A stretch of DNA of 64,000 nt from Bacillota bacterium. GTDB taxonomy: Bacteria > Bacillota > Clostridia > Oscillospirales > Acutalibacteraceae. Below, in pieces: positions 28,207-63,010 of this stretch (the first letter of the stretch is position 1; every line of letters starts with the position of its first letter). The position numbers were made by a program, and so were the translations under genes. Where the stretch lies: assembly GCA_021769885.1 (NCBI GenBank), contig JAETSA010000005.1:1-64000 (forward strand), written 5' to 3'. The notes under the pieces are model-generated. The model was not told where the DNA came from. It searched no databases and saw nothing but the letters and a program-made list of their open reading frames with translations.

Positions 28207-28322
28207 ATGAATCGCTGTCTTCAAGGCGGGGTGCAAGTCCCCACCGGTGGTTAAAGTCCACAAGCTCACGCTGATTGGGTGTAATTCCCAAACCGACGGT
28301 ACAGTCCGGATGAAAGAAGATG
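28207..28322 (+). promoter_or_regulatory. FMN riboswitch (RFN element)
   Basis: cttcaaggcggggtgcaagtccccaccggtggttaaagtccacaagc...gattgggtgtaattcccaaaccgacggtacagtccggatgaaagaagatg. Confidence 0.95.
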
Positions 28323-28342
28323 TATTTGTCAGTACACCTGCG

Positions 28343-39144: not shown

Positions 39145-39426
39145 GTAGGGAACAACCTCTGTGTTGTTCCGTGAATTTCATCAGATTTTGCGGGCGATTC
39201 GTGAATCGCCCCTACGGGTAGTGCGTCATTTTACACATACCGTAGGGACAGCCCTTGCGGCTGTCCGTTTCGGGCACAGAATCCCTCCGTCACGGCTGCG
39301 CCGTGCCACCTCCCTTTCACAAGGGAGGCATTACGATCCGCCCCTACGGGGTTCGCGATTCGCCGTTGGGTTTTTTCGAAATCTAAACGTGCTCGGGCGG
39401 GCGTGGAAACCCGCCCCTACGGGTTT
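39145..39426. repeat. Cluster A of intergenic palindromic repeat units (5 units)
   Basis: Hairpins at 39149-39170, 39192-39211, 39246-39266, 39271-39344 (composite), 39395-39416, each bordered by gtaggg or ccctac. Confidence 0.8.
39281..39330. repeat. Two-hairpin element Q
   Basis: cacggc-tgc-gccgtg (39291-39305) and cctccctt-tcac-aagggagg (39309-39328). Confidence 0.7.
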
Positions 39427-52302: not shown

Positions 52303-52411
52303 TTTGTTTTTATATAGGGTAGATTTTGGTGTGCACGCAGGGGATGACCATGACACGTTCCGCAAAATTTTGCACAATATAAATTGGATTCGCAAATTGT
52401 AGGGGTCGCTG

Positions 52412-52480
52412 TTCTCGCCTGCCGGCTCGGTCAGCGCTTCTAAGCTTCGCTTAGAGGTGTCCACTGGACACCCGCACCCT
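52412..52480 (+). repeat. Two-hairpin element P, copy 1 (nested in GGGTCGCTG/CAGCGACCC)
   Basis: ttctcgcctgccggctcggtcagcgcttctaagcttcgcttagaggtgtccactggacacccgcaccct. Confidence 0.8.
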
Positions 52481-52629
52481 CAGCGACCCGCGGGCATAGG
52501 AACCAACCTCTGTGTTGTTCCGTAGAGTTTCAGTAGACTTCGCGGGCGGATGAAGGCATCCGCCCCTACGAAGTTGCGATTTACCGTTGGGTTTGTACAA
52601 AATTTAACCTTGCTCGGGCGGGTGTGGAA

Positions 52630-52701
52630 GGTCTCGTCTGCCGGCTCGGTCGCGCTTCTGCATACTTCCGTATACAGAGGTCTCCACCGGAGACCCGCAC
52701 T
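52630..52701 (+). repeat. Two-hairpin element P, copy 2 (nested in GGGCGGG/CCCGCCC)
   Basis: ggtctcgtctgccggctcggtcgcgcttctgcatacttccgtatacagaggtctccaccggagacccgcact. Confidence 0.8.
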
Positions 52702-52791
52702 CCCGCCCCTACGGTTTGTGCATCTCCGTTATATTAGAGAAAATCGAACGCTGTTGCGGGCGCTTCGCGAAGCGCCCCTACGGGGGCTTTT

Positions 52792-52983
52792 CTACTTATG
52801 CAGTTTCATTTTTCGCGGGCAGGTATAATCTGTGCACACGGCACAGTCCGTTTTTGCATCTATACAGCACATCAGCCAATCACATTCATCACACAGACAA
52901 ATCTCTGTATTTGTTTCATCGTTATACGGACAATCCTTTCCCAAATTCCCCGGGAAAATGGACACATTGTTTTCATTTTTCAC
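52792..52983 (-). CDS. Small Cys-rich protein (63 aa, 9 Cys)
   Basis: DCPYNDETNTEICLCDECDWLMCCIDAKTDCAVCTDYTCPRK; divergent from the XRE gene. Confidence 0.5.
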   Translation of the reverse strand: MKNENNVSIFPGNLGKDCPYNDETNTEICLCDECDWLMCCIDAKTDCAVCTDYTCPRKMKLHK

Positions 52984-53110
52984 CTATATCCCCTCTGCAA
53001 AGCATAATAAATATTACTATATAATCACATATAATTATTTATACAGTAATAATTATTGTATTTATATCATATTATATTTTATATGTCAACAGCGTAAAAT
53101 AGTGTCGGTG

Positions 53111-53350
53111 ATGAAAATGCGTGCCAAATACAGAGAAAATTATATTAAAATCGGGCTGAAAATTTCTTATTACAGGAAGCTGAAATCGTTGACACAAGAG
53201 CAGTTAGCAGCAATTTTAGGCTGTGATGTATCCTTTATCGGGCAGATTGAAGCACCGAATATTTACAAGGCTGTTTCCTTAGACACCCTGTTCCGCATTG
53301 CCGATGCACTGCAAATTCCCGCATATAAATTACTGTATTTTGAAGATTAA
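53111..53350 (+). CDS. Small XRE-family HTH regulator (79 aa)
   Basis: LKISYYRKLKSLTQEQLAAILGCDVSFIGQIEAPNIYKAVSLDTLFRIADALQIPAYKLL. Confidence 0.85.
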   Translation: MKMRAKYRENYIKIGLKISYYRKLKSLTQEQLAAILGCDVSFIGQIEAPNIYKAVSLDTLFRIADALQIPAYKLLYFED

Positions 53351-53353
53351 AAA

Positions 53354-53390
53354 TCCCGCCTGTGTACTGTGCGCAGGCGGGAATTTTTTG
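53354..53390 (+). terminator. Terminator after XRE gene
   Basis: tcccgcctg...caggcggga + atttttt. Confidence 0.75.
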
Positions 53391-53499
53391 CAGCAGGGAA
53401 TGACCGATGACGTGTCTCGTAAATTTTTCACAATACAAATTGGATACAGGCTACGGGGTTGCATACCACCGTTGGGTCTGTGCGAAATCCAAATGTACT

Positions 53500-53810
53500 C
53501 GGGCGGATGAGGGTGCGGGTGTCCAGTGGACACCTCTAAGCGAAGCTTAGAAGCACCGACCGAGCCGGCAGGCGAGAACGCCGCCCCTACGATTGATGCG
53601 TCGTTTTAAACATACCGTAGGGACAGCCCGGGCTCGCTGTCCGTTTGCGGACGGGTAGTGCGTAGGGCGGTGGATCGCTCCCGCCGTTAGATTGTACGAA
53701 TTTCACGGGCGAACACAGTCGCCCCTACGGATTGCGGTTCACCGTTGGGTTTTTGTGAAATTCAACCTTGCTCGGGCGCTTCGTGAAGCGCCCCTACGGG
53801 GTTTGCGCAT
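53500..53810. repeat. Cluster D of palindromic repeat units, containing nested element P3
   Basis: gggcggatga[P3]cgccgcccctac; gtagggacagcc...gctgtcc; cgggcgcttcgtgaagcgcccctac. Confidence 0.75.
53511..53578 (-). repeat. Two-hairpin element P, copy 3 (inverted orientation)
   Basis: Reverse complement matches copy 1 except AGC/GGT at the GGTC(AGC/GGT)GCTTC position. Confidence 0.8.
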
Positions 53811-62574: not shown

Positions 62575-63010
62575 GGCGGGCGGTTGTCGGCGTTGGGAGT
62601 GTGCGGATTTCGACGGGCGATTCGTGAATCGCCCCTACAATTGGTGCATCGCCATTTGGTTGTGCCAATTTTTGCGGGCGGATGAAGGCATCCGCCCCTA
62701 CGATGTAGGGAACGACCCCTGTGTCGTTCCGCAAAATTCTATCAGATTTCGACAGGTCATCGAGGTTAGTACAAAACCAACCGTACACGGCGGGAGCAAG
62801 TTACGGCTTCTTCATTACCCTTTTGTCGCTTCGCGACATTTTCCCTAACAGGGAAATCTTCCCCGCCCTACATTGTGCGCATTGCGGCTGTTCTGATTTC
62901 GCGGGCGAACACAGTTCGCCCCTATGGGGTTCGCATTTCACCGTTTGGTTTTGTGCGAAGTCTGACCGCGCTCGGGTCGTCGAGGACGCCGACCCCTACG
63001 GGATTGCGTT
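62575..63010. repeat. Cluster F of palindromic repeat units, containing nested two-hairpin element S
   Basis: cgggcgattcgtgaatcgcccctac, gcgggcggatgaaggcatccgcccctac, gtagggaacgacccctgtgtcgttccgc, gcgggcgaacacagttcgcccctat. Confidence 0.8.
62801..62860. repeat. Two-hairpin element S nested in GGCGGGAGCaag | cccCGCCCTAC
   Basis: tgtcgc-ttc-gcgaca (62824-62838) and tttccct-aac-agggaaa (62840-62856). Confidence 0.7.

Follow-up and report, generated by a model that had tools for sequence, protein, structure and literature searches.

A short folded repeat nested in GTAG REP hairpins of a clostridial genome: a candidate family of palindrome-targeting mobile elements

The window analyzed here (the whole stretch of 64,000 nucleotides) contains a short two-hairpin sequence, P, at three places, each time inside the loop of another hairpin and not always in the same orientation. 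How does one folded sequence come to lie within other palindromes, and what could have moved it there? An earlier note, made from the sequence of the window, proposed movement through single-stranded DNA by a Y1/RAYT-type enzyme acting in trans. On balance, we favor a reading in which P is a non-autonomous DNA element of about 50-72 nt that enters the apices of palindromes, and in which the nested units (REP::P) were later amplified.

Three nested copies and their empty counterparts

P folds on one strand into a 5' mini-hairpin and a closing stem that encloses further hairpins. Two structural classes were recognized, with two inner hairpins in class I and one in class II (for example GGTCCTGAACGGTCCCCACTGGGGACCAGGACC). 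The three copies in the window were located as P1 (52412-52480), P2 (~52630-52701) and P3 (reverse, 53510-53578), and each splits the arms of its host as the earlier note had claimed. DNA folding z-scores at the three loci were -4.6, -2.7 and -3.9.

P1 belongs to subfamily A and occupies 52412-52476 on the plus strand (TTCTCG...CCCGCA), with the mini-hairpin GCC-TGCC-GGC and the inner hairpins hp1 (TCTAAGC/GCTTAGA) and hp2 (GGTGTCC/GGACACC). Its host, judged by sequence, is a plus-strand REP hairpin at 52399-52490 with a GTAG foot at 52399-52402 and the arms GGGTCGCTG (52403-52411) and CAGCGACCC (52481-52489). P2, of subfamily B (52631-52699, plus strand), has different stems from P1 and P3, namely TCTGCATAC/GTATACAGA in hp1, which contains one mismatch, and GGTCTCC/GGAGACC in hp2. 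It runs against the GTAG strand of its host, a minus-strand REP hairpin at 52616-52712 (GTAG at 52712-52709; arms GGGCGGG and CCCGCCC). P3 is again of subfamily A (53514-53578, minus strand), differs from P1 at two of 69 positions (97.1% identity), and splits a minus-strand REP hairpin at 53501-53590 (GTAG at 53590-53587) whose arms, GGGGCGGCG and CATCCGCCC, are chimeric and partly mismatched.

Uninterrupted forms of two hosts occur in the window, at the positions given previously. That of the P2 host, GGGCGGGcgtggaaaCCCGCCC, is present at 39395, 59715 and 59865, the first being a minus-strand match to GGGCGGGCGTGGAAACCCGCCC-CTAC at 39395-39420. That of the P3 host, GGGCGGATGAAGGCATCCGCCC, was matched together with CTAC on the minus strand at 52544-52569 and 62676-62701. 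No empty partner of the P1 host was found in the window; elsewhere in the same genome its counterpart is GTAGGGGTCGCTGACCTCAGCGACCCG, with 94% identity across 93 bp of flank.

The source genome comprises 2.32 Mb in 38 contigs, with the window at the start of contig C11; 1.21 Mb of the genome was examined in full. P1-P3 belong to a set of about 125 near-identical copies, many more than the earlier note had seen. A 12-base P core with one mismatch allowed gave 129 matches in 2.32 Mb versus one for the reversed control, so that P is not a chance sequence, and BLAST of the genome returned 41 P places at 93-100% identity. The 1.21 Mb contained 77 copies (63.5 per Mb), divided into 41 of subfamily A, 31 of B and 5 of C, with 67 of the 77 lying outside open reading frames of at least 150 aa. 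Letter-identical copies numbered 18 in subfamily A, with the sequence of P3 as the commonest P in the genome, and 10 in subfamily B, indicating that the spread was recent.

Filled and empty sites were paired for most copies, which identifies P as a discrete insert. For 78 of 87 copies, joining the two flanks gave a sequence that matched a site lacking P elsewhere in this genome, these pairs being paralogs within the genome and not orthologs between strains. One clean pair matched at 92% across 131 bp.

Host hairpins and the amplification of nested units

When GTAG followed by a perfect 7-bp stem was searched for in the 1.21 Mb, 512 loops were 0-9 nt long and 74 were 60-79 nt long, with other lengths sparse. 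Controls with six other tetranucleotide feet were flat and lacked this second mode. GTAG-footed REP hairpins contained 71 of the 77 mapped copies. Host families were used unequally (empty/filled): P was found in GGGCGG (84/29), GGGTCG (13/9), GGGACG (13/6), GGGGCG (1/6) and GGCGGG (19/7), and was nearly or wholly absent from GGGCGA (154/1), GGAACR (108/0), GGGCGC (38/0) and GGACGG (26/0). In the filled families the P strand carries (A)CC inside the loop or at the 3' border of the loop. This position explains the orientation of P, which would be set by whichever strand of the host loop carries (A)CC. The two orientations described earlier are therefore real but not free, as each subfamily is tied to particular host families: relative to the GTAG strand, subfamily A runs with it in 38 copies and against it in one, and subfamily B with it in one and against it in 27.

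The preference for loops is likewise real yet not universal. Among copies in this genome, 69% had a perfectly paired stem of 6 bp or longer around the junction; the share was 30% in relatives and 17-19% in the wide set, compared to about 5-7% for junctions displaced by at least 12 nt and 3% for shuffled letters. Thus the enrichment proposed in the note is strong in this genome (69% versus ~5%) but weaker elsewhere (17-19% versus ~7%). This stem-run test with displaced junctions was used in place of flank complementarity by duplex energy across 40 nt, which proved too unspecific in repeat-rich flanks. A second short element of about 22-24 nt, (TG)TCAAGAGTATGATAGTAT(ACTG), is likewise nested in REP loops, at 87688 (minus strand) of contig C3 and ~122186 (plus strand) of contig C5 in the source genome (G000).

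Hosts of P elsewhere include non-GTAG palindromes, other P copies and tRNA-derived arms. Within a tRNA array, a class II copy breaks one gene at its anticodon arm (L186:1976-2100, JAUNJS010000075.1). The interrupted gene reads as tRNA-Glu, and no intact copy of it was found in the same MAG. P also lies in a tRNA-Pro fragment with its empty partner alongside (L268) and, with the tRNA read by eye, in tRNA T-loops (L332:14624 and L370). Where P lies inside P (L259:4302-4420, L251 and L237), the inner copy is in the loop of hp1 or hp2 or after the mini-hairpin.

A large share of the copies may have arisen through amplification of REP::P or through recombination, and not through repeated jumps of P. 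The chimeric-arm unit of the P3 host, with its mismatched arms (GGGCGGCG-P-CATCCGCCC), was present at five loci with unrelated outer flanks, and at L084 the left arm from one host family and the right arm from another surround a single P. From these sequences we infer that chimeric units reflect composite amplification together with recombination at P, either of which alone could contribute; RAYT-driven spread of the composites is plausible. The almost exclusive pairing of subfamilies with host families further suggests that few independent insertions may underlie most copies.

Carried to its end, this evidence would make P a passenger of certain REP lineages, immobile now, with a few old founding insertions followed by amplification of REP::P by RAYT and gene conversion. 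We regard this as a minority possibility. It accounts for the bond of subfamily and orientation to host family, the chimeric arms that recur across loci and the swapped arms at L084, but it is at odds with the presence of P in at least six unrelated hosts in the source genome, in tRNA-derived arms, in non-GTAG palindromes of other families, within P (L259, L251) and in head-to-tail arrays. It is also at odds with a copy lodged in an internal, fixed REP of the RAYT gene L043, where a TAA in hp1 ends the reading frame; the paralog L044 has the same REP empty.

If an enzyme moves P in trans, the Y1 genes would be candidates. The source genome has six, all of RAYT type, with 4er8 as the nearest solved structure. 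The co-occurrence of Y1/RAYT genes with P that the earlier note had suggested looking for was observed within the genus, where all eight P-rich genomes had Y1 genes versus 15 of 29 others (p = 0.013), an association that could reflect the supply of REP targets and not mobilization. It did not extend to eight P-bearing genomes outside the genus, in which no Y1 was detected (G039, G042, G051, G262, G441, G145, G111 and G205). Two of these carried 17 (G051) and 11 (G262) copies, although multicopy transposons are often missing from MAGs. Among the loci examined, no autonomous element had P ends. Lagging-strand transposition of single-stranded DNA predicts a strand bias; P showed none relative to local GC skew (44 versus 33), which is itself weak.

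The RAYT genes have a peculiarity of their own. Those at L041 and L043-L046 (contigs C21 and C26 of the source genome) hold one or two inverted GTAG REP hairpins within the coding sequence, as do L182, L184 and L185 of the same genus. The internal REPs follow about CVKNRKPILS and NHIHLLI, and each resembles one of the intergenic REP families in this genus. L042 differs in having REPs at both ends and one mid-gene. REPtrons have been described as RAYT genes with flanking REPs (PMC3733652); internal pairs that encode VGxxxxxP and GRxxAPT may be new.

Fold, ends and target of the unit

The covariation pointed out in the earlier note was borne out overwhelmingly. Among 32 diverse copies, 98.1% of cells were paired and 14 of 21 pairs had changed on both sides. 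The covariation score was 0.388, compared to 0.112 in shuffles (none of 500 matched it) and at most 0.070 when the alignment was slid. In copies picked irrespective of those positions, the mini-hairpin pairs were GC/GC (182), AC/GT (25), GG/CC (3), GT/AC (3), AG/CT (2) and CC/GG (2).

Such a fold raises the question of whether P is a structured RNA, either regulatory or reverse-transcribed in the manner of a SINE, that spreads via an RNA copy. Conservation of a multi-branched fold on one strand, together with that of its apical CCACYGG loop, would suit it, as would the variable left-end nucleotides (T, G or NG). G.T mispairs slightly outnumber A.C mispairs (41 versus 25, p = 0.06; in hp2 17 versus 5, p = 0.017), a difference that does not separate RNA from DNA folding. 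We nevertheless consider an RNA route unlikely: G.U pairs are rare (~2% of cells), unlike in typical RNA families, Rfam 15 covariance models gave no match to P at the gathering score or at E values up to 5, and P takes both orientations relative to neighboring genes (21 same and 16 opposite in tandem contexts). The Rfam matches in the window, which are unrelated to P, are an FMN riboswitch (28213-28325) and a pemK RNA (696-753).

Still less probable is that P and the REP hairpins are transposase-free replication errors from template switching at palindromes: hairpin-in-hairpin growth is common here (P in P, other hairpins in P loops, the second short element in REPs) and near-perfect arms suit quasi-palindrome correction, but such errors cannot put one ~65-nt sequence with constant boundaries at more than 100 sites and across families of Clostridia.

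The ends of the unit were read from two head-to-tail arrays (contig C33 of G007, period 63, L138; contig C9 of G145, L374). Both fuse ...GCA straight onto T/G-TCTCG with no CC at the junction, so the CC that follows inserted copies belongs to the target. The mobile unit is thus probably K-TCTCG...CCGCA, 63-70 nt, with ends uncertain by 1-2 nt; filled/empty comparisons place the ends as the arrays do, and in some lineages P ends in GCAA. P sits 5' of (A)CC at the hairpin apex, and the GG at the foot of its stem lies opposite the target CC in 149 of 209 parsed copies. On the left flank only position -1 is restricted, to G or T, and earlier positions are variable without a fixed tetranucleotide. 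Comparison of the first 15 nt with the last 15 nt in reverse complement gave agreement at one position, hence no terminal inverted repeats, and no target site duplication was seen in filled/empty alignments.

A single-stranded DNA route fits these features. Under the mechanism that we favor, P would fold on one strand as a 5' mini-hairpin and a closed stem with one (class II) or two (class I) hairpins. It would then insert, through an HUH/Y1 enzyme acting in trans, directly 5' of an (A)CC carried by the same strand as P, with neither terminal inverted repeats nor target duplication. The targets would be apices of pre-existing palindromes, chiefly GTAG REPs but including tRNA-derived arms and further palindromes of Clostridia. 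At the foot of the closing stem, GG would pair with the target CC, a guide-and-site layout resembling that of IS200/IS605 ends. Nested REP::P would subsequently have been amplified in this genome, probably through recombination between copies of P as well as by the RAYT transposases that move the host REPs.

IS608-type ends comprise a guide, a hairpin and a cleavage site, and non-autonomous IS200/IS605 elements exist. P shares with them subterminal hairpins, a 5' stretch predicted to pair with the 3' boundary, and the lack of inverted repeats and target duplication. Unlike them, it has no fixed tetra- or pentanucleotide on the left flank, and no known member's end sequence or partner transposase is linked to P. 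We judge P to be a new family of non-autonomous, palindrome-targeting mobile elements that appears to work like an IS200/IS605 derivative, for which such derivation is a candidate origin. More tentatively, P could be a minimal single-stranded DNA transposon (50-72 nt) of a new, guide-bearing class that recognizes apices by structure and a C-rich site by pairing, is moved in trans and hyper-parasitizes REPs. If so, it can come to occupy roughly one in eight REPs, and even the RAYT gene that mobilizes them can be disrupted by it.

Known systems and occurrence in Clostridia

In the open-access literature, we found no paper that matched the P core sequence and no description of P. Two other identities were rejected: the terminal agreement at 1 of 15 positions and the lack of target duplication do not suit a DDE-type MITE, and the consensus lacks the R'' (GTTRRRY) and R' (RYYYAAC) boxes of an integron attC site. 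P also lacks the foot of a GTAG REP, as GTAG is absent from its consensus and only the hosts carry it.

Similarities to GTAG REPs and their RAYT systems (REPtrons, REPINs) are considerable. P is short, palindromic, non-autonomous, intergenic, non-coding and present in high copy, one strand is recognized by its fold, its hosts are GTAG REPs, and RAYT genes are present in the genome. It differs in having no GTAG or CGTC foot, in being longer and multi-branched, in targeting REPs and in occurring also in genomes without detected Y1. REPs within palindromes have been reported in T. roseum, where GTAG-23 lies in CCGSSCC(n3,4)GGSSCGG and hundreds of empty targets exist, and other nested REPs include GTAG-15 dimers in A. 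variabilis and CGTC-1 in H. neapolitanus (PMC3733652). There too one palindromic repeat lies inside another, but the insert is a REP, whereas here the REP is the target and the insert an unrelated folded element that uses several host families and is common to many Clostridia. Insertion sequences that target REPs are also known (PMC1525189; ISPpu9, PMC8450116); like P they enter REP palindromes, but they carry genes and are 1-2 kb long.

P shows that repeat families can parasitize one another, as it lies in REPs and has once broken a REP transposase gene. With many copies, filled and empty sites, and many species, P offers abundant natural material for asking how palindromic repeats without genes locate hairpins or single strands as targets, a question for which studies have usually been confined to REP/RAYT and IS608.

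With a covariance model and strict filters, P was detected in 17 of 388 species sampled evenly across Clostridia. A pattern scan of GTDB genomes returned more than 116 stretches, nearly all from gut or rumen Clostridia, and P-bearing taxa include Acutalibacter, Neglectibacter and Eubacterium coprostanoligenes. Plasmids gave no P match. Three phages each carried a weak relative of P, for which no empty-site relatives were found.

The covariance model allows such elements to be recognized in gut Clostridia, where P probably confuses gene calls and assemblies. In RUG11231, many MAG contigs (L209, L210, L256, L266, L274 and others) end inside P within ATAACAAGCGTCGATGTCCCCCGAG-P-CCCTCTAAGGCGG, indicating that P breaks assemblies. 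The host repeat in these contigs, ATAACAAGCGTCGATGTCCCCCGAG/CCCTCTAAGGCGG, may be a transposon end.
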